Shown here piece by piece: positions 12,873 through 36,593 of a DNA stretch of 64,000 nucleotides. Origin of the DNA: Acidobacteriota bacterium. GTDB taxonomy: Bacteria > Acidobacteriota > Terriglobia > UBA7540. Location: the NCBI GenBank assembly GCA_023474345.1, contig JAMCXS010000022.1, positions 1 to 64,000 of the forward strand. Reading direction: 5' to 3'. Made by a program: the position numbers and the translations under genes. The notes under the pieces are model-generated. The model did no database searches, was not told the DNA's origin, and saw only the letters and a program-made list of their open reading frames with translations. Each line of letters starts with the position of its first letter. Within the stretch, counting starts at the first letter, position 1.

Positions 12873-13535
12873 CTATGTGCAGCCGCGGCCGAGTTTCAGT
12901 CTGGTGGCGGGAATTTTCTTTTGTTGGGTCGCAGGCGGAGGAGGCGGGGGCGGCGCGGCGGGTGCAGCCTCACCGGCGCCCTTGGAGGGAGCCGCGGTTC
13001 CGAAGAAATAATCGCGCAACTGTTTGGCTTGCTGATATCCGGTGGGCGAAGCGCCGGCGGTTTGCAGGCTGGTGGGCGTCATCAAGTCATACCACCAGCC
13101 ATTGATCCCTTCGCGTACGGAATAGGCGTTATAGCCTTTCATGCTGAGGAGCAGTTGCGCCTGAGCGGCGTGGCCCTGGCCGGAGCCATAAAGGACGATC
13201 TTCTTTCCGCGCGAAAGCTGCTTGAGGCTATCGGGCTCAAACAACTGCGCCAGCGGAATATTGATGGCGGTAGGAATGTGGTAGTCATCGAACTTCCACG
13301 GCTGGCGGACGTCAATAAGCTGGAAATCCTGCCGCTTCTCGACGAGCCACTGGGCCAGTTCGCGCGGGGTGACGCGGTCTTTTTCCTGGACGATGTTCTG
13401 GACCAGCGCAGGAGCGTTCAAGGGCTCCGAACCCGTTCCGCGGGCAATCGTGGCGGCCACGGCCAGCACCACGCCGAGGAAGATGGCCGCGGCGGCCGCC
13501 AGGCTTTTGCCGGTCAGTTTGATTTCAGTTCTCAT
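12873..13535 (-). CDS. Membrane-anchored rhodanese-like protein lacking the catalytic cysteine
   Basis: A 220-residue protein with an N-terminal signal or anchor (SLAAAAAIFLGVVLAVAATIA), a single rhodanese domain at about 50-150 (FQLIDVRQPWKFDDYHIPTA, then an active-site loop), and a low-complexity C-terminal tail rich in Ala and Pro. In rhodaneses the active-site loop starts with Cys after a hydrophobic strand; here the strand IVLY is followed by GSGQGHAAQA, so the sulfur-carrying Cys is absent. It may bind sulfur compounds or protein partners without doing sulfur transfer. The ATG at 13535 overlaps the stop of the upstream YeeE-type gene (ATGA), so the two are translationally coupled. It is the last gene of the molybdoenzyme operon. 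Confidence 0.8.
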   Translation of the reverse strand: MRTEIKLTGKSLAAAAAIFLGVVLAVAATIARGTGSEPLNAPALVQNIVQEKDRVTPRELAQWLVEKRQDFQLIDVRQPWKFDDYHIPTAINIPLAQLFEPDSLKQLSRGKKIVLYGSGQGHAAQAQLLLSMKGYNAYSVREGINGWWYDLMTPTSLQTAGASPTGYQQAKQLRDYFFGTAAPSKGAGEAAPAAPPPPPPPATQQKKIPATRLKLGRGCT

Positions 13536-14155
13536 CGGCGTTCATCTCCTTTTGACTGCTTTCCATAGAGCCGCGCGAAAACGTTCCACGGGCCTTCACT
13601 TTTCTCCGCCGCCCAAAACGCCACAATTGCCAGCACCACGACGGCCAGAACTACAATGCCTGTGTTCAGGTTGAGCCAGGTGGGAATGGTCAAGGTTCCC
13701 AGATGCCCCGAGAGGTTGAAACTGGTAATGTGCGGGACTGTCACGCCGAACAGGAAGATTCCAGCCAGAATCCCAACGGCAAATAGCAGAGCGTCGATTT
13801 TTCCGATGGCGACCGCCACCGCAGAGGTGCCTGGTCAATAGCCGCCGATGATGAATCCCGCGCCCAGCAAAAGCCCACCCACGAGTTGCGGCCAGATATA
13901 GGTCGGCGGCACGAAGACTTGGCTCATATCCAGCCAGCCGACAAAGCTGAGATAGGCGATTCCGAGCATGGCGACCACGATGGCCGAAAACATTACCTTA
14001 AGGACGGCAGAATCCTTGAAAAAAAACTGCGCTGTCAGCTTGTGCGCACTCGAAAATCCCGCTCTTTCCAGAAAGAACCCGAAAAAGAAACCCAGCAGAA
14101 GGGCCACCGCCAGGTAGGTTGTCAGTGAAAAGGTTGAAAAGTAGGGAGCGCTCAT
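13532..14155 (-). CDS. YeeE/YedE-type sulfur transporter half, probable selenoprotein (UGA at codon 107)
   Basis: Read through one TGA, this is a 207-residue membrane protein. The first part (MSAPYFSTFSLTTYL, then LGFFFGFFLERAGFSSAHKL) and the segment PPTYIWPQLVGGLLLGAGF are typical of the second half of YeeE/YedE-family transporters, which move thiosulfate or related sulfur species. The family motif GGY-C-PGTS is encoded as GGY-TGA-PGTS: the stop is at 13835-13837, precisely at the conserved cysteine. Downstream codons stay in frame through SAVAVAIGKIDALLF, two more membrane helices and TGA at 13532-13534. No start codon with a ribosome-binding site precedes the second part. The ATG at 14155 overlaps the previous gene's stop (ATGA). 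A hairpin with a GGUC loop follows the UGA. Alternatives are a Cys-to-stop mutation or a sequence error. Confidence 0.75.
13804..13821 (-). promoter_or_regulatory. Candidate bacterial SECIS hairpin after the UGA
   Basis: On the mRNA, counting the U of UGA as 1, bases 17-23 pair with 28-34 (six Watson-Crick pairs and one G-U) and close a four-base loop GGUC at 24-27 (13811-13814). The E. coli fdhF SECIS also has a GGUC apex, beginning at base 22 after the same count. The loop G and U that contact SelB are therefore present at about the right distance. Found by hand; no folding energy was computed. Confidence 0.6.
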
Positions 14156-15615
14156 AACCAATACCTCCGCATAAAGTAGGCTCCAATGAACCCTGCGGCA
14201 AAAACCGCGAGCATGAAAACCCAGGCGCCGACCGCGAGCACGGCTCCGCCGGAAAGCGCCAGGCCGCTGGTGCATCCGCGGGCAAGCCGCGCGCCGTAGC
14301 CTGTCAGAATTCCTCCGCCGAGGGCCAGCGCGTAGCGCGTGCGCCGTGAAATCCGGGGGCCTTTATCCACGGCGATTCGGACGCGGCCCGCCAGCCAGCC
14401 GGAAACAAACCCTCCGATCATCGCGCCAAATATCTCGAAAACCAGGAAGGCGATTAATGGCGATTGGCCGGGCTGGACGTAATTGCTCCAATAAGAACTG
14501 TGAGCTGCGTAGTTCGGCGCCACCCAGGCAAGAATGGCGACAAGATAGCGGGTGAAAGCGCCGGATGCGCCCAGGCCCTGGCCCATCAGCACAAAAGTGG
14601 CGAGCAAGGTGAGGCCCAAACCGGCGCCTGCCACATAAGGCGGCCAGTACTCCGGCGCGCGAAATATTCTCTTAAATGTCCAGGCCCCTTCGCGCTTCGC
14701 TTCGGTTCTTTCTAGCGGACACTTGGCTGCTACGCTTCCGGCTCCCGCGACGGGCGGCGCAACCCCGCTTGATCCGGAAGCGCCCTGAAGTTCCAACTTC
14801 CAGGCTTCTTCCTGCATTTTGACCTCTCTCCACCATTTGAAATGGTGCCTGTAGGCGTAGAGTTCGCTCACCATGCCGGTGATCATCGAAAAGAATGCCG
14901 GCTTCTCTTCCGGAAATACGGCGCCCATGTATACGTGAATCATCAGCCCGGAAAGCACCAGGCCGACCGCAACAAAATGCAGGACCACCGCCCAGGCCAC
15001 CGTCATGGTGCTGATCAGGTGCAGAGCCATCACCAGGCCCGTGAGCATAATCACCGGAATCGCCAGGTAGACGAGCCAGGCAAACAGTTTCTGCCCGGCG
15101 TTGTAAAGCCCCTGCGGGGGCAGAGGCTCATGGTTGCGGCCCATCACCCGCAGGAAACGAGCCTTCAGCCAGCGCACGTCGTCGGCATCGAGGCAGACTT
15201 CCTCGTTTTGGAAGAGAATGCATTGCAGGGCCAGAAACTTTCGCCAGGCAGGCTGCTCGTGGATCCGCACGCCGTGCAGAACACTAGTCCGCACGTAAGT
15301 TCGGAACCCGAAGGTAACATAGACCGCAAAGACGATCACCCAGGTGACCCCGACCGCGATGTGGAACCGGAGCATGTTGGCCCGGGAGCCGAAGAAGGTT
15401 GTCACCATGTTGATGTACCAGTAAGGGGCAACGCGAAAATAGGGCGAAGCGATCAGCGCGGCGCCGGTCGAAAGCTCAAACAGCCACACGACGGCATTGA
15501 ACCAGTGGAGCAGCATGATTGCCACGTGGTGCTTCTTGATCTGCCGTCGGGACATCGCCTCCGCCTGCTCGACGGTCAGCGGAGCGGGCGTGAGTGGCAA
15601 AGATTGAGCCCCCAT
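14152..15615 (-). CDS. Cytochrome b (FdnI/PhsC-like) fused to a YeeE/YedE-type domain
   Basis: A 487-residue membrane protein in two parts. Residues about 30-265 resemble the diheme cytochrome b subunit of formate dehydrogenase and thiosulfate reductase: LLHWFNAVVWLFELSTGAAL, a LRFHIAVGVTWVIVF helix, LITGL-type helices and a LHFVAVGLVLSGLMIHVYMG segment supply His ligands. After a linker at 265-310, residues about 320-487 are a YeeE-type first half, with GARLARGCTSGLALSGGAV and a conserved Cys. The next gene encodes the matching second half, so transporter and quinone-linked electron carrier are physically joined. The stop overlaps the next start by ATGA. The ATG at 15615 has AGGAGG upstream. 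This fusion is unusual. Confidence 0.8.
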   Translation of the reverse strand: MGAQSLPLTPAPLTVEQAEAMSRRQIKKHHVAIMLLHWFNAVVWLFELSTGAALIASPYFRVAPYWYINMVTTFFGSRANMLRFHIAVGVTWVIVFAVYVTFGFRTYVRTSVLHGVRIHEQPAWRKFLALQCILFQNEEVCLDADDVRWLKARFLRVMGRNHEPLPPQGLYNAGQKLFAWLVYLAIPVIMLTGLVMALHLISTMTVAWAVVLHFVAVGLVLSGLMIHVYMGAVFPEEKPAFFSMITGMVSELYAYRHHFKWWREVKMQEEAWKLELQGASGSSGVAPPVAGAGSVAAKCPLERTEAKREGAWTFKRIFRAPEYWPPYVAGAGLGLTLLATFVLMGQGLGASGAFTRYLVAILAWVAPNYAAHSSYWSNYVQPGQSPLIAFLVFEIFGAMIGGFVSGWLAGRVRIAVDKGPRISRRTRYALALGGGILTGYGARLARGCTSGLALSGGAVLAVGAWVFMLAVFAAGFIGAYFMRRYWL

Positions 15616-15626
15616 AATCGTTCCTC

Positions 15627-16358
15627 CTATTTCTCGAACTCTTCTTCGCCCACCTTCAGTTGGTGGAAGAATGCGACGGCTTGGCCCAGAAACGTGGCGC
15701 CCACGGCGGCGAGGATAAACGGCTTCAGGTAGCCGCGCCAGATCTCGCCCGGTGCGAGCAGCCGCGGACGATGAGGCGGAAAGGTGGCAAGAACCAGATC
15801 CACATTCTCTTTCTTGCCCAAGTAATAGACGTTGGGCCCAATCGCTACCTCAGGCGTTTCAAGCCGCCGGGCACCTTGTTCGTAAACCATGTTGAAGACT
15901 TCGCTCTTCGGGTCTTCCAGATTGCCAAAGAACTTTGCGTGGGCGGTGCAGGTGAGGACGCACGCCGGTTCCTGCCCGCGTTCGAGACGCGGGGAGCAGA
16001 AATCGCACTTGTCGGCCTTTTTGATTGTGGGGCTGATGTAGCGGGCGCCATAAGGACACGCTTCCAGGCAATAGCCGCATCCGATGCACAGGTTGCGGTC
16101 AATGTGCACAATGCCGTTCTCGGCCTGGTAGGTGGCGCCGGTCGGGCAAGCCTTGGTGCAGGCGGGGTGGTCACAATGATTGCATTGCGCGACGTAAAAG
16201 CTCGAAACGAGATCCGGGAACACGCCGGCCACACCCGTCGCGTGAACGTGCGTGCGCGCAAAACCCGTGGGAACTTCCCATTCCGAGTTGCACGCCACCG
16301 TGCAGGCCTGGCAGCCCACGCATTTCCTGAGGTCTGTTACCATGGCGTAGCGCGCCAT
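15627..16358 (-). CDS. Four-cluster ferredoxin subunit of a molybdoenzyme (PsrB/PhsB/NrfC type)
   Basis: A 243-residue electron-transfer subunit with four cysteine clusters: CVGCQACTVACN near the start, CNHCDHPACTKACP, CIGCGYCLEACP and CDFCSPRLERGQEPACVLTC. This set defines the DMSO-reductase-family beta subunits that carry four [4Fe-4S] clusters. There is no signal peptide, so it would travel with the Tat-exported catalytic subunit. An unusual C-terminal hydrophobic segment (FILAAVGATFLGQAVAFF) anchors it to the membrane. It sits between the molybdopterin subunit (64 bp gap holding a palindromic element) and the cytochrome b fusion (11 bp gap). Confidence 0.92.
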   Translation of the reverse strand: MARYAMVTDLRKCVGCQACTVACNSEWEVPTGFARTHVHATGVAGVFPDLVSSFYVAQCNHCDHPACTKACPTGATYQAENGIVHIDRNLCIGCGYCLEACPYGARYISPTIKKADKCDFCSPRLERGQEPACVLTCTAHAKFFGNLEDPKSEVFNMVYEQGARRLETPEVAIGPNVYYLGKKENVDLVLATFPPHRPRLLAPGEIWRGYLKPFILAAVGATFLGQAVAFFHQLKVGEEEFEK

Positions 16359-16372
16359 CGGTTTTGCTCCAC

Positions 16373-16427
16373 TGTAACGGCGCTCTACCGAGCGCCGGGA
16401 ATCGCCGGTGGGGACACCGGCGTTACA
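16373..16427. repeat. Three-way-junction palindrome at the molybdoenzyme stop codon
   Basis: Outer arms TGTAACG (16373-16379) and CGTTACA (16421-16427) enclose two hairpins: GCGCTC/GAGCGC (16380-16385 with 16390-16395) and CGCCGGTG/CACCGGCG (16403-16410 with 16415-16422). The TAA of the molybdopterin subunit lies inside the right arm, so the element supplies the end of that gene. It may modulate expression of the downstream subunits. Confidence 0.65.
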
Positions 16428-18630
16428 ACTTGACTACCTTTACGAAGTTCACTCGCATTCCTGTTCCGCCCATGATGGGATCGACCTTAACGCGAGTCAT
16501 CAGGCCGGCATCCGAAGCGCCGCGGTGATAGGCGAGTTTCAGCCGCCGGGACTCGTGTCCGAACCCGTGCACCATGTACAGGCAATCGCGGCGGATGCCT
16601 TTGGTAATGCTCACTCGAATGGGCAGGCTTTTCGCGCCATCCTGGTTTTCGAGCACGACTTGCTGACCTTCGGCAAGTCTTAAGTCGCGAGCCGCGTCCT
16701 CATTGATCCAGGCCACATTTTCGTCCATCAGAGCGTCCAGCCAGGCGTTGTTCTGGCTGCGCGCGAAGGAATGAACCGGCGCCCTGCCATAAAGCAGCCG
16801 GAAGTAGCCGACGGGAGGTTCACCGACCGGCGCATAACGGGGCAGAGGATCAAACCCCAGTTGCTTGAGCAGAGGCGAGTAAAGCTCGATTTTGCCGCTC
16901 TGGGTCGGAAACAGCGGACCATCTTCCGGCAAGCGTTCCGCAATGTACGGCCGGCCCGGAAAAGCCACCGCACCGCGGGTAAGGAGCGTATCGATGTTGA
17001 CGCCCAGCGGCTGGACCAGAGTCGCAAGGTGCTCTTCAGGCGTCTTCCAGGGAAAGTAGGCTTCCAGTCCCAGCCGATGCGCCATTTGCAGCGTAATCCA
17101 CCATCCCGGCTTCGATTCGTATAGCGGCTCGACGGAAGGTTGCCGGATGGCGATATAGGGCTGCTTGGCGCTCAAGGCAATCTGCGGCATGTCGTACCGC
17201 TCCAGGTAAGTCGCCTCGGGCAGCACCAGATCGGCGTAGTAGGTCTGCTCCATGGGCAGAACGTCGACCACGACCATTAAATCAAGTTTCCGAATGGCCT
17301 CGAGAGTGTGAGGCCGCTGGGGAATGCTTTCCAGAACGTTCTGGCCGTAAACAATCCACGCCTTGATGGGATAGGGCTTGCCGCTCACGGTGGCATCGAC
17401 CAGGCCGTTGGTGACTCCTTGCTCTTCAGAAGCCAGCGGGAAACGCGTCCCCGCGCCATCCGCCCGCTCGCGCTTCGGTGCGGGAAAAGCGGGCGTACGG
17501 AACTCTCCTGTCTTGATCGCTGTAGGAAGAAAGATTCCGCCTTTTTGCCCCCAGCTTCCCAACAAAGCCGTGAGGATGGCCATGGCCCGCGCGCGCTGAG
17601 TGTCATCACCGTACCAGGTGGTATGCCGGCCGGGATGCAAGGCAACCGCCGGTTTAGCCGCCGCCATGGCGCGCGCCGTGGCACGAATCTTGGCCGCCGG
17701 AAGCTCTGTGATGGTTTCCGCCCATTCGGGAGTGAACTCTTTCACGTGCGCGGCAAGTTCCGGAAACCCTTGCGCGTAGCGGGAAATGTATTCCTTGTCG
17801 TAGCTTTCTTCCGTGATCAGGACATGCATCCAAGCCAGCAACAGCGCGGTGTCGGTCCCGGGCCGAATAGGTAGCCACCAGTCGGCTTTCGCCGCCGCGG
17901 TGGAAAACCGCGGATCGACAACAATCAGTTTGGCTCCGCGTGAAAGTCCATCGGCAAAAGCCGTGACCTGCGACGTAAAAATGTTCTCGCCAATGTGCGT
18001 TCCGATCAGAACGATCAGCTTGGATTCTTCCAGATCAACCGGCTCCGGCGATCCCAGCCCCTGGCCGAAGGTCAGCGCATAGCCCACCTCACGCGGGCCG
18101 CGGCATTGCGCGAAGGCGGGCTCGGCGATATTGTGCGTTCCGTAGGCTCGCATCAAGGTATGGAAAAAAGCCGACGCGACGCCATGCGGGAAAAACGCCA
18201 CGCTTTCAGGACCATATTTCTGTTTGAACTCAGTGAGACGTCCGGCGAGGAAATCCAGCGCCTGGTCCCAGGAGACCTGCTTGAATTTTCCTTCCCCGCG
18301 CTCGCCCACGCGCAGCATCGGATATTTCAAACGGTCGGGATCATAAAGAAGCTTGGGCCCGGCGTTGCCCTTAGCGCAGAGCCGCCCTTTGGTCAGCGGA
18401 TGGCTGGGATTGCCCTCAAGCTTCAACACCTTGCCATGGGCCACTTCCGCCAGCACGCCACAGCGCCAAAAGCACATCTCGCAGTTGGTGGCAATGGTTT
18501 CGACTCGTGTGGTACCGCGCCAGCCCGGAGGATGCTCGGCGCTTTGGGCAGGAGCAGTCCCGAGGGTTGTTACAGCCCCCAGAAGGGATGAACTCCTGAT
18601 GAAATCGCGCCTTGTGAGCTTAGGACTCAT
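16423..18630 (-). CDS. Tat-exported molybdopterin oxidoreductase (PsrA/PhsA-like catalytic subunit)
   Basis: A 735-residue catalytic subunit of the DMSO-reductase superfamily, probably acting on a sulfur compound such as thiosulfate, polysulfide or tetrathionate. The ATG at 18630 has AGGGAG upstream and starts a twin-arginine signal (LTRRDFIRSSSLLGAVTTLG). An N-terminal [4Fe-4S] site follows (CEMCFWRC, then GRLCAKG). The molybdenum ligand is most likely the Cys in EPAFAQCRGPREVG near residue 175. A molydopterin-dinucleotide-binding C-terminal domain ends the protein. Substrate cannot be read from sequence, but the neighbouring YeeE-type and rhodanese-like genes argue for sulfur chemistry. It is the first gene of the minus-strand operon. 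Arsenate or tetrathionate reductase relatives are alternatives. Confidence 0.85.
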   Translation of the reverse strand: MSPKLTRRDFIRSSSLLGAVTTLGTAPAQSAEHPPGWRGTTRVETIATNCEMCFWRCGVLAEVAHGKVLKLEGNPSHPLTKGRLCAKGNAGPKLLYDPDRLKYPMLRVGERGEGKFKQVSWDQALDFLAGRLTEFKQKYGPESVAFFPHGVASAFFHTLMRAYGTHNIAEPAFAQCRGPREVGYALTFGQGLGSPEPVDLEESKLIVLIGTHIGENIFTSQVTAFADGLSRGAKLIVVDPRFSTAAAKADWWLPIRPGTDTALLLAWMHVLITEESYDKEYISRYAQGFPELAAHVKEFTPEWAETITELPAAKIRATARAMAAAKPAVALHPGRHTTWYGDDTQRARAMAILTALLGSWGQKGGIFLPTAIKTGEFRTPAFPAPKRERADGAGTRFPLASEEQGVTNGLVDATVSGKPYPIKAWIVYGQNVLESIPQRPHTLEAIRKLDLMVVVDVLPMEQTYYADLVLPEATYLERYDMPQIALSAKQPYIAIRQPSVEPLYESKPGWWITLQMAHRLGLEAYFPWKTPEEHLATLVQPLGVNIDTLLTRGAVAFPGRPYIAERLPEDGPLFPTQSGKIELYSPLLKQLGFDPLPRYAPVGEPPVGYFRLLYGRAPVHSFARSQNNAWLDALMDENVAWINEDAARDLRLAEGQQVVLENQDGAKSLPIRVSITKGIRRDCLYMVHGFGHESRRLKLAYHRGASDAGLMTRVKVDPIMGGTGMRVNFVKVVKL

Positions 18631-18720
18631 CCGAACTCCCTTCACACCTAAATCACGCGCATAAATAACATGAATAAAGCCTGGAGGTCACAGCCGACAA
18701 TGAGGTATGTCACTCGACTG

Positions 18721-18736: not shown

Positions 18737-18859
18737 CCAACAAGAGTTCCCGCCGTTTATCGTTGAAAGCCGGAAATGGCGGCAGGGCTTTCTGCCGTGT
18801 TTGGGGACCGGTGGATGCCAAGGGAAGGCAGATGCTTTTAGGAGGCTGTGATTTTAAGC

Positions 18860-20938
18860 ATGAGAAACGAGAAGGAATGGACATCGCCGATTCGCCACGC
18901 TTTTCTCAGCGAGCGGGGGGTTCTGGGTTTTGCCTGGGTCGGCGGAGCACTTTTATTTGTGGCACTTACGGGCCTTTTGATCTGGCTGCTGCCCTTCAGC
19001 GTCAGCGCCCAGATGGCGGTACTGTTCCACACGGCGCTTGGACTGCTGGTACTCGTTCCTTTCGCGCTCTGGCAACTCAGCCACTGGCTGGCCACCCGCA
19101 AAAAGCCGCGCGCCGCGAGAAAGATCAGCGCTTACGCGGGATTCTGGTTGCTGGCCGTGAGTACGGTAGCTGGCATCATCATTACCTGGCAGGCGTTTTT
19201 TGAGGTCGTCGTCAGCCACGGCTGGGCGGAAATTCATCTCTGGAGCGGGGTACTGGCTCTGCCGTTTCTCGTCTACCACGTTTTGCCGGTCAAGCAGGAG
19301 AACGTTGCCGCAAATGGGTTGCCGGTCGTAGTCCCCTCGCAAGATTACGGGCCTGCCCGCCGCCGCACGTGGAAGCATGTTTTTGGCGTGGCTGCGGCGC
19401 TTTGCGCGTTGCTCGTGGCCGGGACATTGGCTTACCGCGCGCCATCATTCAAGAATTATCGACCGCCTGCGAGCTTCAAGGCGGCGCCAGGACCAAATCC
19501 GTTTGCTCCGAGCCACGCTGAAACCACAATCGGCGGCCCGGTCGCGCCCGAGACCATTGCCGACTCGCGCTCCTGCGGGGCGTCGGGATGCCACACTGCG
19601 ATTTACAAGGATTGGCAGGCAAGCGCTCACCGTTGGTCGGAAGAAGATCAGTTTTTTCAAGAGGTTCGCAGCGCCACTACCCAAGTGCAGGGGATCAAAT
19701 CCACAGAGAAATGCGGCGGTTGCCATGCTCCGGTTTCGATGCTTTCCGGGTACAAAGACCCGCGGCTGGGGAAAAACATTCCCGGCTACAAAGAAGGCGA
19801 CTCCTGCATCGTCTGCCACGCCGTGCGCCATGTGGACGAGCGCGGAATCGGAAGTTACGTGCTGGGCATCCCGAAGCCGTATCTTTACGAATACAGCAAG
19901 GCCCGCTATGCAATTGCGGTCAATCACTTTTTGATTCGCGTTTATCCCGCGCAGCACGACCGCGATTACAACCTGAAGATTGCCCGCCAGGCCGAGTCGT
20001 GCGCTCCATGCCACAAGGAATTTGACGTGGTGGGCAAGTATCCCGGCCTTCTGCAAGTCGAAACTCAGTATGACGACTGGAAGCACAACAAGTGGAACAC
20101 CAATCCCGACCCGGCCAAGCGGTTGCGTTGCCAGCAGTGTCATATGTTCTACCAGAGCGTGGCGCGCCGCGCCGAAGCTGATCCATATGACTTGGAGGCT
20201 GGGCTGGGACTCAAATACCACAACCATCGCTTTGCCGCCGCCAATCAATACATGCCTCTGGCCATATCCTCGCCCGGCGCCGAGGAGCAGGTTCGCGATG
20301 TGAAGAAATGGCTGACGGGCGAGCGGCTGGTGCCGGAAATTCAAAAAGTCTGGCCGCGCGGTCCCATTGTCCCGATAACGATCAAAGCGCCGGCATCTGC
20401 GGAGCCGGGCAAACAGCTTAATTTACAGGTCGTCTTGACCAACGAAAAGGCCGGTCACAGCTTTCCTACCGGGCCACTCAACGTGGTGCGAGTCTGGATT
20501 GAATTGGACGTACGCGACCAGGCGGGAAGGGAAATTTTTCATTCCGGAGGGCTCGACGGTGAGAACCACGTTGAGGCCGGGTCCTATGTCCTCCGCCCGA
20601 TTGCCATCACGGAAGGCGGACAGTCGATCATGACGGCGGACATCTGGCACCCCCAGGGTCCCAACTACCGTCCGGCAATCTCTCCCGGCAAATCAGAATC
20701 CTTTGAGTACCATTTCCAGGTGCCAAGAGGCGCAACGGGGCCGCTCGCGGTGAAGGCTCGCCTCCGGTACCGCAAAGCCAATCAGTTTTTCATGAATGCC
20801 GTTTATCCTCACGAGCACCGAGAGCCTCCGATCACGGACGTCTCTTCGGAATCCGTAGAAATTCCAATTGCAATCAGCACTGCCACAAGGGCGGCAATCT
20901 CGACTCGACCCATCGTGCGGATACCCGCAAGTAAATAA
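18860..20938 (+). CDS. Membrane-bound multiheme cytochrome c with b-type-like membrane domain
   Basis: About 692 residues. Four hydrophobic segments with histidines at 20-190 (for example LLIWLLPFSV, FHTALGLLVLVPFALWQ, HLWSGVLALPFLVYHVL) resemble a quinol-linked cytochrome-b-type module; a further anchor precedes the periplasmic part. Heme c sites: an unusual CGASGCH (CX4CH) near residue 238, then CGGCH, CIVCH, CAPCH and CQQCH near 285, 316, 381 and 424, five in all. The last 200 residues form a beta-sandwich-like domain. ATG at 18860 is preferred; GTG at 18848 is in frame but only two bases from AGGAGG, while 18860 is 14 away. Divergent from the molybdoenzyme operon, it is a likely electron partner of it. 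Confidence 0.8.
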   Translation: MRNEKEWTSPIRHAFLSERGVLGFAWVGGALLFVALTGLLIWLLPFSVSAQMAVLFHTALGLLVLVPFALWQLSHWLATRKKPRAARKISAYAGFWLLAVSTVAGIIITWQAFFEVVVSHGWAEIHLWSGVLALPFLVYHVLPVKQENVAANGLPVVVPSQDYGPARRRTWKHVFGVAAALCALLVAGTLAYRAPSFKNYRPPASFKAAPGPNPFAPSHAETTIGGPVAPETIADSRSCGASGCHTAIYKDWQASAHRWSEEDQFFQEVRSATTQVQGIKSTEKCGGCHAPVSMLSGYKDPRLGKNIPGYKEGDSCIVCHAVRHVDERGIGSYVLGIPKPYLYEYSKARYAIAVNHFLIRVYPAQHDRDYNLKIARQAESCAPCHKEFDVVGKYPGLLQVETQYDDWKHNKWNTNPDPAKRLRCQQCHMFYQSVARRAEADPYDLEAGLGLKYHNHRFAAANQYMPLAISSPGAEEQVRDVKKWLTGERLVPEIQKVWPRGPIVPITIKAPASAEPGKQLNLQVVLTNEKAGHSFPTGPLNVVRVWIELDVRDQAGREIFHSGGLDGENHVEAGSYVLRPIAITEGGQSIMTADIWHPQGPNYRPAISPGKSESFEYHFQVPRGATGPLAVKARLRYRKANQFFMNAVYPHEHREPPITDVSSESVEIPIAISTATRAAISTRPIVRIPASK

Positions 20939-33304: not shown

Positions 33305-34105
33305 CTAAGCAAAATATATATCTCTTTGCCCGCTGATAATGCCCAACTCACTCGCCAGGCTGTAAAACAACTGCAATCCCCGGCGATTTTCCTCATCCAA
33401 AGAATAATCGATATTTTGGGTGAGGTAAACTTTGACGTCCTCGGCTTGCATATTCAACCTGGTTGAGTATTCCCGCGCGATCTCGTCAATATGCGAGAGG
33501 CCGTAATCTCTGGAAGCCTCGAAGTCCTTGCGGAACCGGGCGATATTGGCGTCTTCGTGGCCCGCCCAAACCGCGAACACAAAAGGCAACCCTGTGAACT
33601 TCCTCCACTCCGCGGCAAGGTCGTAGATTTCGGACACCGGACCATCGTAGGCCAACGCGGGATCGCCTATCACGAGGGCGGCATCGGCCGCGTTCAGCAT
33701 AGCCTCAGGCTTCGGCGCCGAAGGCAGAAAATCGACAGGGTGCTCATAGAATTTGCGCATCAGGATCGTCAAGAGAGCCACGGAAGTCCGAGAAGAGTTA
33801 TCAATCGCAATCGACCGGATTTCCTTAACAGGCACTTTGCTGAACAGAAGAACGCTTTTCACCTTTCCTTTCGAGGCAATTGAGAGACCGCTGAGGATCT
33901 GGAGATGCTCGATGCGCTGGTACTCGATGGAGGGAATAATGCCGATATCGACCTCCCGCCGGCGCAATGCATCAGCGCACACCGCTGGGACGGTAAAGTC
34001 GAGATCGTATTTCCCTTTCTGTTCGCCTTTCAGCATTCCCCAGACCAGCGGAACCGTGTTGAGATACTGAACGACGGAAACTCTGGGAGTATGGATCGTA
34101 GTCAT
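33305..34105 (-). CDS. mqnA: Chorismate dehydratase
   Basis: Converts chorismate to 3-[(1-carboxyvinyl)oxy]benzoate, the first committed step of the futalosine pathway. ATG 34105 (MTTIHTPRVSVVQYLNTVPL) is preferred; the frame extends to 34219 but that part has no family resemblance. The 266-residue protein has a periplasmic-binding-protein-like fold with the SVVQYLNTVPLVWGM start, DIGIIPSIEYQRI, and SRTSVALLTILM, all typical of MqnA. It is followed by mqnC. mqnB, mqnD and mqnE are not in the window. Confidence 0.9.
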   Translation of the reverse strand: MTTIHTPRVSVVQYLNTVPLVWGMLKGEQKGKYDLDFTVPAVCADALRRREVDIGIIPSIEYQRIEHLQILSGLSIASKGKVKSVLLFSKVPVKEIRSIAIDNSSRTSVALLTILMRKFYEHPVDFLPSAPKPEAMLNAADAALVIGDPALAYDGPVSEIYDLAAEWRKFTGLPFVFAVWAGHEDANIARFRKDFEASRDYGLSHIDEIAREYSTRLNMQAEDVKVYLTQNIDYSLDEENRRGLQLFYSLASELGIISGQRDIYFA

Positions 34106-34276
34106 AGAACACCAGGTTTGATTTGTCCAAATTACAACTATACATCTTTCGGGCGGCGGGTAGCGCCGCAAGTAATGCCCAATATCAAGCACGGGTTCCC
34201 GCAGCGTGACGAAAGGCAAATAAGCGCAACCGCCTCCTCGATCCGGCGCCTCGGGGAGCTTGGCCGGAATCGGGGC

Positions 34277-35188
34277 TCAGGCTTTTGGATGAGCTTTATC
34301 GTAAACCTCCATCAATTGCTTGATGGACACCTGCGTATATTTCTGGGTTGTGGCCAGGCTCTTATGGCCCAGCATCTCCTGGATCGCGCGCAGGTCCGCG
34401 CCCTCGGCCAGCAGGTGTGACGCAAAAGCGTGGCGCAGGGAGTGGGGCATTATCAGCGGGCAAAGAGATATATATTTTACGTAGCGTTTGAGCAGCCGGT
34501 CCACGGACCGGGTGGTCAGTCGCTGCCCGCGGGCATTCAAGAACAAGGCTGGGCTGCCGGTCCTTGTTTCCCGCAAAAGCTTCTCACGAAAAGGCAAGTA
34601 GCCTTCGAGCGCCGCCTTGGCCTTCGAACCGAAAGGAACAATCCTTTCTTTGCTGCCTTTTCCGCGTACCAGCACAAAGGCGTCTCCAAAATTTACATGG
34701 CGCAAATCCAGTCCGGCCAGTTCGCTTACCCGCAGGCCGGAGGCGTATAACAACTCCATGATCGCGCGGTCGCGCAGAATGACCGGATCGCTGACCTCGG
34801 CAGCTTGTGCCACGCGATCGAGGAAGGTGTTCATCTCTTCCTCGGTCATGATTCGCGGAAGCTTCTTGTCAAGTTTAGGCGTTGAGATGGCCGCGGCGGG
34901 ATTTTCCTCGAGGAGCTGTTCTCTACTTAGAAATTTGAAGAAAGCGCGGATCGCGGCGAGCTTTCTGGCGATCGATGCTTTTTCCTCTTCCTTCTGAAAA
35001 AGAAATGCCAGGAAACCGCGAATATTATGGGCGTCGATGGCCCTGATATCAACCTGGGCTTCCTTATTTTCGCCTGCCAGGAAATCCCGAAACTGCAGGA
35101 GATCGCTGCGGTAATTCCGAATCGTATGCGGCGAAGCATTCCGCTCGTAACGCAGGTACTCGACGTAGCGTTCGATCAGCTTATCCAT
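34277..35188 (-). CDS. xerC: Tyrosine recombinase XerC
   Basis: A 303-residue site-specific recombinase for chromosome-dimer resolution at dif. The N-terminal SAM-like core-binding domain (RYVEYLRYERNASPHTIRNY) and the catalytic domain are complete: Arg in ASGLRVSELAGL, Lys in GKGSKERIVPFG, HxxR in MPHSLRHAFASHLL, His in MLGHKSLATTQKY, and the nucleophile Tyr of that last segment. Length and sequence style fit the XerC/XerD housekeeping type rather than an integrative-element integrase. Its start overlaps the trmFO stop by 8 bp, the trmFO-xerC arrangement also known from Firmicutes and Acidobacteriota. Confidence 0.88.
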   Translation of the reverse strand: MDKLIERYVEYLRYERNASPHTIRNYRSDLLQFRDFLAGENKEAQVDIRAIDAHNIRGFLAFLFQKEEEKASIARKLAAIRAFFKFLSREQLLEENPAAAISTPKLDKKLPRIMTEEEMNTFLDRVAQAAEVSDPVILRDRAIMELLYASGLRVSELAGLDLRHVNFGDAFVLVRGKGSKERIVPFGSKAKAALEGYLPFREKLLRETRTGSPALFLNARGQRLTTRSVDRLLKRYVKYISLCPLIMPHSLRHAFASHLLAEGADLRAIQEMLGHKSLATTQKYTQVSIKQLMEVYDKAHPKA

Positions 35189-36593
35189 GGAATCTGTCCG
35201 TTATCTTTCCGCCCGTGGGCGGGATGGCATAGGGTCCGGGATCCGTGCCAATCGCCTTGGGAGGCAAAGCGAGCGGCAGTTCGCGCAGCCAGTCCGCGAG
35301 ATCAGCAAGAGCGCGCTCACACTGACGCTCCCGGCGAGCCCGGCGGTCGCGCGCGATGTGCCGCGGCAGCCCTTCGATGGGAGGCAAAAGGTCAAAAGCG
35401 ATATTCGCGGGTTGATAATGATCCGGGCTGGCATGGGTGATGTAATGGACCAACGAGCCCAGGGCGGTGGTCCGCGGAGGAGGCGCAAACGGCTTCTGCC
35501 GCACTCGGTGGGCCAGCGCCAACCCTGCCAGCAAGCCCGTTGCGATGCATTCGACGTAACCTTCCACTCCTGAAAGTTGACCCGCAATGAAAACTTGCGG
35601 CGCCGCTCGCAAACTTAAATCAGCTTCAAGAAGTTTCGGCGCGTTGATATAAGTGTTGCGGTGAATCTGGCCAAAACGGAGGAATTCCGCCTTCTCCAAG
35701 CCCGGAATCATGCGCAGGATTCTTTTCTGCTCCGGAAATTTCAAATGGTTCTGGAAACCCACCAGGTTGTAACTGGAAAAGCGCAAGTTTTCTGACCGAA
35801 GCTGCACCACTGCGTACGGACGCTGGCCGGTGCGGGGATCGATAATTCCCACCGGCCTCATTGGACCGAACCGCAAGGTGTCGAAGCCGCGGCGCGCCAG
35901 TTCCTCGATCGGGAGGCAAGCTTCGAAATACTGCCGATCCTCAAACTCGTGGGCCGCCACGCTTTCCGCGCCCATCAGCGCCTCATAGAATGCGCGATAT
36001 TCCGCTTCGGTCATGGGGCAGTTCAGATAATCCTCGCCGCCTTTGCCGTAGCGGGACGCCCGGAAGATACAGTCCATGTTCAAGGTTTCAGCGTCAACAA
36101 TTGGGCTGATGGAATCATAAAACGCCAAGTTCTCGGAGCCTGTCAGGCATTGAAGGCTCCGGGCCAAGGCATCGGAAGTCAGGGGACCCGTGGCCACCAG
36201 CATGGATTTGTCCAATGGGATTTCCTTCACCTCTTCGCGGCGCAGTTCGATGAGCGGATGTCCATCGATGGCCTTGGTGACTGCGGCGGAAAAACGTTCC
36301 CGGTCCACGGCGAGAGCTGCTCCGCCCGGCACCGCGCATTCATCCGCCATGCGCAGCAGGAGCGACCCCGCGCGGCGCAGCTCTTCCTTCAGCAGCCACG
36401 AAGCCGCGCCGGGGGCGTTTGATTTGAGTGAATTGCTGCAGACCAACTCCGCCAGGAGGCCGGTCTTGTGCGCCGGTGTCGGACGTTGCGGCCGCATTTC
36501 GTAGAACTCCACGGTCGCCCCACGCTCGGCAAGTTGCCATGCCGCCTCGCTGCCCGCCAGTCCGCCTCCCGCAATGATGACATCAGCTCCCAT
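35181..36593 (-). CDS. trmFO: Methylenetetrahydrofolate-tRNA-(uracil-5-)-methyltransferase
   Basis: Makes 5-methyluridine at position 54 of tRNA using methylenetetrahydrofolate and FAD. ATG 36593 (MGADVIIAGGGLAGSEAAWQ) gives a 470-residue protein with the FAD-binding GGGLAGSE near residue 9. LAELVCSNSLKSN near 50 holds the conserved cysteine of the catalytic site, and the C-terminal INANFGLLP-like text (here FDLLPPIEG) is present. The gene precedes xerC with an 8-bp overlap. A TGTTATAAT box stands just upstream. Confidence 0.92.
   Translation of the reverse strand: MGADVIIAGGGLAGSEAAWQLAERGATVEFYEMRPQRPTPAHKTGLLAELVCSNSLKSNAPGAASWLLKEELRRAGSLLLRMADECAVPGGAALAVDRERFSAAVTKAIDGHPLIELRREEVKEIPLDKSMLVATGPLTSDALARSLQCLTGSENLAFYDSISPIVDAETLNMDCIFRASRYGKGGEDYLNCPMTEAEYRAFYEALMGAESVAAHEFEDRQYFEACLPIEELARRGFDTLRFGPMRPVGIIDPRTGQRPYAVVQLRSENLRFSSYNLVGFQNHLKFPEQKRILRMIPGLEKAEFLRFGQIHRNTYINAPKLLEADLSLRAAPQVFIAGQLSGVEGYVECIATGLLAGLALAHRVRQKPFAPPPRTTALGSLVHYITHASPDHYQPANIAFDLLPPIEGLPRHIARDRRARRERQCERALADLADWLRELPLALPPKAIGTDPGPYAIPPTGGKITDRFHG

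Follow-up and report, generated by a model that had tools for sequence, protein, structure and literature searches.

Does a TGA codon inside a gene for a YeeE/YedE-type transporter end the protein, or is it decoded as selenocysteine (Sec)? The question is raised by positions 1–64,000 of contig JAMCXS010000022.1 from an uncultured Acidobacteriota bacterium (Terriglobia; UBA7540; GCA_023474345.1), a stretch referred to here as the window, in which a TGA stands at the place of the cysteine of a GGYCPGTS-type motif. An original prediction made from this DNA considered the gene to be a selenocysteine form of one half of a sulfur-compound transporter. The evidence presented below supports that view, and with a probability of about 0.87 the gene encodes a selenoprotein in which UGA is decoded as Sec by SelB and tRNA-Sec with the aid of a GGUC-loop hairpin, the product being a PmpB-type channel half with a proposed relay role.

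The frame across the TGA and the surrounding operon

The gene and its neighbours are listed in Table 1. With the TGA read as a residue, the gene forms one frame of 207 residues whose sole internal TGA is codon 107, in agreement with the original prediction. The predicted placement of the gene was also right; its strand, which had not been given, is minus (14155 to 13532). A further 100 codons lead from the internal TGA to a terminal TGA stop. At both ends the frame shares an ATGA with its neighbour, joining the stop of the preceding gene to its own start and its own stop to the start of the following gene, as expected for a frame that is translated as a whole within an operon; the earlier account had noted the 100 codons and the overlap with the following gene. 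The match to PF04143 covers residues 32–185 and spans the TGA (57.4 bits, gathering cut-off 27), so that YeeE-type sequence does lie on both sides of the stop. In a listing of open reading frames under translation table 11, the gene is split into two separate frames at the UGA. Ordinary annotation with this table cuts such genes at the UGA and the transporter is hidden.

Table 1. Features of the locus, with positions in the window.
Feature	Positions	Strand	Remarks
Rhodanese-fold protein	12873..13535	minus
YeeE/YedE (PF04143) PmpB-type half protein	13532..14155	minus	207 residues, Sec predicted at residue 107
SECIS-like hairpin	13804..13821	minus	CGGUGGC-GGUC-GCCAUCG; 7 bp, loop GGUC, -10.0 kcal/mol
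In-frame TGA, taken as selenocysteine	13835..13837	minus (read 13837-13835)	codon 107, GGY-U-PGTS
Cytochrome b561-type membrane anchor fused to the other YeeE half	14152..15615	minus	PmpA-type, Cys in ARGCTSG
4Fe-4S subunit, TtrB/NrfC/PhsB-like	15627..16358	minus
Molybdopterin oxidoreductase, PhsA-like	16423..18645	minus	525 bits
Divergent gene, weak multihaem-cytochrome matches	18848..20938	plus

The order of molybdenum subunit, FeS subunit, cytochrome b/YeeE fusion, YeeE half and rhodanese-fold protein is found in all eight of the acidobacterial loci L052–L059 (L052 with an insert) and is partly kept in three loci from Bacteroidota (L061–L063). The divergent multihaem-like gene also adjoins the operon in L052, L053 and L055. 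No in-frame TGA occurs in the partner YeeE half in any of 22 related rows. When scored with the PhsA model NF012032, the molybdenum subunit falls below the curated cut-off of 694 bits. Within a stretch of 16 residues of the rhodanese-fold protein, which we take to be the expected place of the catalytic cysteine, G or S is present and Cys is absent in all 19 related rows, which represent 17 distinct loci. This protein is probably a conserved non-catalytic rhodanese.

Two further observations concern the related operons. A gene for a 440-residue outer-membrane protein of the FadL/OmpP1/TodX type (PF03349), absent from the window, separates the Sec gene from the rhodanese gene in genome G037 (JAJYLL01; L052 6773–8092). 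In two of the Bacteroidota loci, the matches to the FeS subunit cross an in-frame TGA (L061 1717–2409 and L062 3872–4564; ESLND-U-KMKEE), which may be the end of the gene read through by the search.

Across the window there are 38 frames, the Sec gene included, in which a single TGA is flanked on either side by more than 80 codons. Of these single-TGA frames, Pfam was applied to both sides of two and to one side of a third. The TGA at 34279 of the minus strand (33308–35200) was rejected as an ordinary stop between an integrase (PF00589) and a gene of menaquinone biosynthesis (PF02621), and the remaining sides inspected matched no Pfam family. The window yielded nothing with Rfam at the gathering threshold and no tRNA with ARAGORN.

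Alternation of cysteine and UGA among relatives

Of 39 genomes of the same family that were searched, six matched at E 0.001, and in five the match was strong (E 1e-90 or better). A single TGA is present in four of these five genes and none in the other. In a sample of 396 genomes from the phylum, 37 matched at 1e-20; the matches occupy 44 places, and 14 of these are not among the loci that were fetched. A pattern scan of one genome per species across 84,980 species gave 58 loci. The 93 fetched loci (L017–L109) contain three duplicate pairs (L018 and L053, L019 and L052, L020 and L054) and represent 90 distinct genes. At the aligned codon, all 93 loci have Cys or TGA (52 TGC, 35 TGT and 6 TGA). 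Counted over the distinct genes there are 52 TGC, 34 TGT and 4 TGA, and the proposed alternation of TGA with TGC or TGT is therefore found in a ratio of 4 to 86, a pattern that, judged from the alignment, exceeds chance.

The four TGA genes are those of the window, G037, G017 (JAHEKS01) and G033, which are four genomes of one family. Each holds a single TGA and no further in-frame stop; of the disabling mutations that the original prediction had named as a warning, additional stops are thus absent from the relatives. Two weak matches from the phylum sample, in G160 and G218, also have a TGA somewhere; the aligned site of G160 (L051) is TGT and that of G218 lies outside the fetched loci. The window gene shows the pattern by which bacterial selenoproteins are recognised, namely UGA at the Cys position of homologues with homology on both sides.

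Purifying selection acts on the part of the gene that follows the TGA. When the four TGA genes and the G024 Cys gene are compared in pairs, synonymous divergence is 0.48–0.78 per site, and dN/dS past the TGA is 0.083–0.155 in the 7 of 10 pairs for which it could be computed. In each pair for which both values could be computed, dN/dS is somewhat higher after the UGA than before it. A lone stop within a frame always invites suspicion when the sequence comes from an uncultured MAG. That the gene is decaying through a nonsense mutation, or that the TGA is a sequencing error, is nevertheless close to refuted and hardly credible here, since the same TGA occupies the same codon in four separate assemblies with 0.54–0.75 synonymous divergence per site, no other stop is present in the four genes, and both the constraint past the TGA and the ATGA overlaps on either side speak against it.

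It may also be supposed that the UGA is a real stop and that two peptides are made, the second from a restart at the GTG of codon 113, six codons past the TGA. This GTG is the next start of an open reading frame after the TGA, but by eye it has no obvious ribosome site in the 20 bases inspected, and the relatives with Cys have a single chain across the site. The most conserved residues of the protein (C107, P108, G109 and T110, invariant in 26 aligned sequences) stand at or just before the putative restart, and such a restart is considered very improbable.

A tree of 46 relatives was calculated with the Sec codon entered as Cys. The G024 gene (TGT) and the window gene are sisters (100/86); the two group with G037 (100/99) and then with G017 (99/87), and the position of G033, next to Cys genes, is weakly supported (82/19). 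In its drawn form the tree requires the TGA label to change three times, and two changes are forced by the starred branches. The preferred reading is that Sec was gained in or before this group and returned to Cys in G024, where the hairpin described below was retained; the Cys gene of G024 with its hairpin looks like a reversal. Parallel gains of Sec are a possible alternative.

A SECIS-like hairpin and the machinery for selenocysteine

According to a published model of the bacterial SECIS (PMC13188914), the loop is 3–9 nt in length with a G in its first two places, the stem is 4–16 bp, the spacing is 16–37 and the energy is -7.5 or lower. A candidate element that agrees with all four constraints follows the UGA, an outcome in favor of the SECIS check proposed with the original prediction, and its GGUC loop begins 20 nt after the UGA. 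Against the background of synonymous divergence given above, the longest stretch without any difference among the four TGA genes measures 20 nt (GCGGTGGCGGTCGCCATCGG), and it is this stretch that forms the hairpin. Codons 112–117 are identical in all of them (6/6), compared with 15 of the 109 other codons that have an invariant amino acid; the probability of six of six is near 7e-6, or about 7e-4 when some 100 places are allowed for, with codons treated as independent and the place picked post hoc. Only 5 of the 90 distinct genes contain the 18-nt hairpin string, these being the four with TGA and the Cys gene of G024. The residues encoded at the hairpin are AVAVAI and differ in the Cys genes L055 and L056.

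When the UGA codon is omitted, as when it is covered by the ribosome, the predicted fold contains the hairpin. With 71 nt that include the UGA, RNAalifold prefers a different fold in which the UGA takes part. RNAalifold gives no covariation in the hairpin because the hairpin is invariant. An energy of -10.0 kcal/mol is not rare by itself: 65 of 1923 other positions attain it, as do 40 of 1000 synonymous codon shuffles. Stronger hairpins of other sequence occur at an allowed place in two of ten Cys genes tested (L056 and L023), and retention of the hairpin in the G024 Cys gene likewise counts against a SECIS. From sequence comparison, it is the conservation, place and loop of the hairpin, and not its stability, that argue for a SECIS element.

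The machinery for Sec is widespread in the family. Among the 39 genomes, matches over the cut-off were obtained for tRNA-Sec in 31, selA in 34 and selB in 32. One of the 31 is doubtful since the match in G001, at the start of a contig, gave no gene with ARAGORN. Both tRNA-Sec and selA are present in every one of the 18 genomes with a completeness of 90% or more and a contamination of 5% or less. Each of the other three TGA genomes (3/3) has tRNA-Sec, selA, selB and a selD containing a single TGA. In the Cys genome G024, which is 57% complete, tRNA-Sec and selA exceed the cut-off and neither selB nor selD does. Weaker matches that might have represented a second tRNA-Sec were rejected, as ARAGORN reads those in G010, G029, G019 and G022 as tRNA-Trp, an 89-nt tRNA-Cys, tRNA-Ser and tRNA-Ser, respectively. 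The tRNA-Cys of G029 (L175 175–263, anticodon GCA) scores 51 bits with the tRNA-Sec model and, from its sequence, may be an unusual Sec-like tRNA-Cys.

The MAG to which the window belongs is 75% complete in 33 contigs, and the search for Sec machinery that the original prediction called for was successful in part. Its selD carries a TGA in GUAAKLSP, and a hairpin with the loop GUAUU comes after this TGA at a spacing of 19. The last 143 residues of SelB (PF09107) are also present and run off the end of contig C29; they are 63–75% identical to seven relatives, four of which have the same neighbour gene. The machinery is not wholly absent from this genome, then, though selA was not found and neither was tRNA-Sec, the seven matches to its model being ordinary tRNAs. 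In four of eight relatives inspected, selA lies near a gene whose visible part has an MGS-like domain, presumably purH. The MAG has no purH, only a weak match in a 1083-residue frame. Since this neighbour is missing as well, the segment with selA is probably missing from the assembly.

The two genes not found in the MAG raise the prospect that, although the gene encodes a selenoprotein in the family, the Sec trait is being lost or is already gone from the window's own genome, where the UGA would then be a stop. Some weight is lent to this by G027 (88% complete), the sole further genome of the genus that was searched, which has no selA, tRNA-Sec or YeeE half and neither selB nor selD over the cut-off; recent loss of the trait is probable there. 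In the window's own genome, however, selD keeps its TGA and hairpin, the conserved SelB terminus with its shared neighbour ends only where the contig ends, the absence of purH points to an unassembled selA segment, and the transporter gene is intact and constrained past the UGA. Loss of the trait is thus unlikely, if better placed than a restart. Insertion of Sec is what we infer for the gene of the window as for those of the other TGA genomes.

Relation to known YeeE proteins and a proposed role

The original prediction treated the YeeE family as one not established among the selenoproteins. This does not hold, as a selenoprotein catalogue (PMC13188914, PMC9312934) lists a YeeE/YedE thiosulfate transporter (PF04143, motif GUxSG, WP_012471001.1). 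On the basis of its entry, that protein resembles the one described here in its Pfam family and in the predicted Sec in place of Cys. Compared by motif alone, it differs in having GUxSG and not GGYUPGTS, and the protein described here is of half size. A plasmid search for the catalogued protein returned only two distant matches, and YeeE is not named in the main-text passages searched of two papers to which the listing refers. No earlier report of a GGYUPGTS form was found in the texts of open-licence PMC papers; an earlier listing, for example in supplementary tables, may exist. The predicted selenocysteine in the GGYUPGTS half protein is a new motif variant in a family already listed as containing selenoproteins.

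The closest point of comparison for the residue itself is TsuA of S. thermophila, in which Cys293, Cys91 and Cys22 are described as a thiosulfate relay in the YeeE-YeeD paper and Cys91 and Cys293 as indispensable in PMC11582611. Residue 107 aligns with Cys91 (phmmer E 0.008, TsuA 5–105; position counted by hand). The TsuA model NF052577 gives 29.7 bits over model positions 5–111 against a cut-off of 400. An AlphaFold model of the 207-residue half has a mean pLDDT of 72 and its first fold match is the inactive YeeE mutant C91A (PDB: 6lep), a weak match (E 0.92, TM-score of 0.58 by query). TsuA is one full-length chain whereas the locus encodes two halves, and no gene for a YeeD/TsuB partner is present among the neighbours searched by Pfam.

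Half-size proteins encoded side by side are described for PmpA and PmpB, for which a heterodimer is proposed; PmpB is the N-terminal YeeE half with a Cys equivalent to Cys91, and PmpA is the other half with Cys293 (PMC11582611). As stated in that source, these proteins are of about 130 residues with four membrane helices. Here the protein has 207 residues, and in its predicted model the helices of at least 18 residues number more than four, in excess of the PmpB description, while the partner is fused to a cytochrome b and Sec replaces Cys. The locus also resembles the Phs/Psr-type thiosulfate and polysulfide reductases in having a molybdenum subunit, an FeS subunit and a membrane anchor in one operon, and differs from them in the fusion of the anchor to a YeeE half and in a PhsA score of 525 of the 694 bits of the cut-off.

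From these comparisons, a mechanism may be outlined. SelB and tRNA-Sec would decode the UGA as Sec with help from the downstream GGUC-loop hairpin, and the product would serve as the N-terminal, PmpB-type half of a channel of the YeeE/YedE family. The other half would be fused to the cytochrome-b anchor of the PhsA/PsrA-like molybdenum reductase encoded just upstream. By homology to TsuA, residue 107 would lie in the pore as the middle relay cysteine (Cys91), where the selenol would probably contact the sulfane sulfur of a passing thiosulfate or polysulfide. Reduction of the sulfur compound would in this way be tied to the movement of sulfur across the membrane. With the PhsA and TsuA models below their cut-offs, the operon context is the basis on which we infer a role in thiosulfate or polysulfide metabolism.

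It is tentatively proposed that the selenol in the translocation path is a relay for sulfur atoms and not a redox catalyst, that the cytochrome b fusion joins the channel to a periplasmic molybdenum reductase so that reduction and sulfur transfer are carried out by one machine, and that Sec was gained in this acidobacterial family and reverted to Cys in one lineage with a relic of the SECIS. A selenoprotein channel that moves selenium compounds or senses sulfur, in place of the import or export of thiosulfate or polysulfide, is a less favored alternative with a modest chance of being correct. The selenium-linked YedE models TIGR04112 and NF033796 do match the protein weakly, at 29.7 and 23.2 bits, and the YeeE-like SoxT1B is described as acting in signalling (PMC11582611). 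Both scores are far below the cut-offs of 200 and 350 bits, however, and the operon that holds the gene is PhsA-like and includes a rhodanese-fold protein. This operon also exists with Cys in place of Sec in further members of the Acidobacteriota and, incompletely, in Bacteroidota.

According to PMC9312934, the majority of selenoproteins are believed to take part in redox reactions. With the relay proposed above, a selenocysteine at a pore residue of a transporter raises the question of what selenium may do outside enzyme catalysis. The family provides a natural Sec/Cys pair, two genes of 91% identity in syntenic operons that carry predicted Sec and Cys, respectively, at a shared site, with which the effect of the swap could be measured. 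The finding also links the use of Sec to an operon of the sulfur-respiration type in Acidobacteriota.
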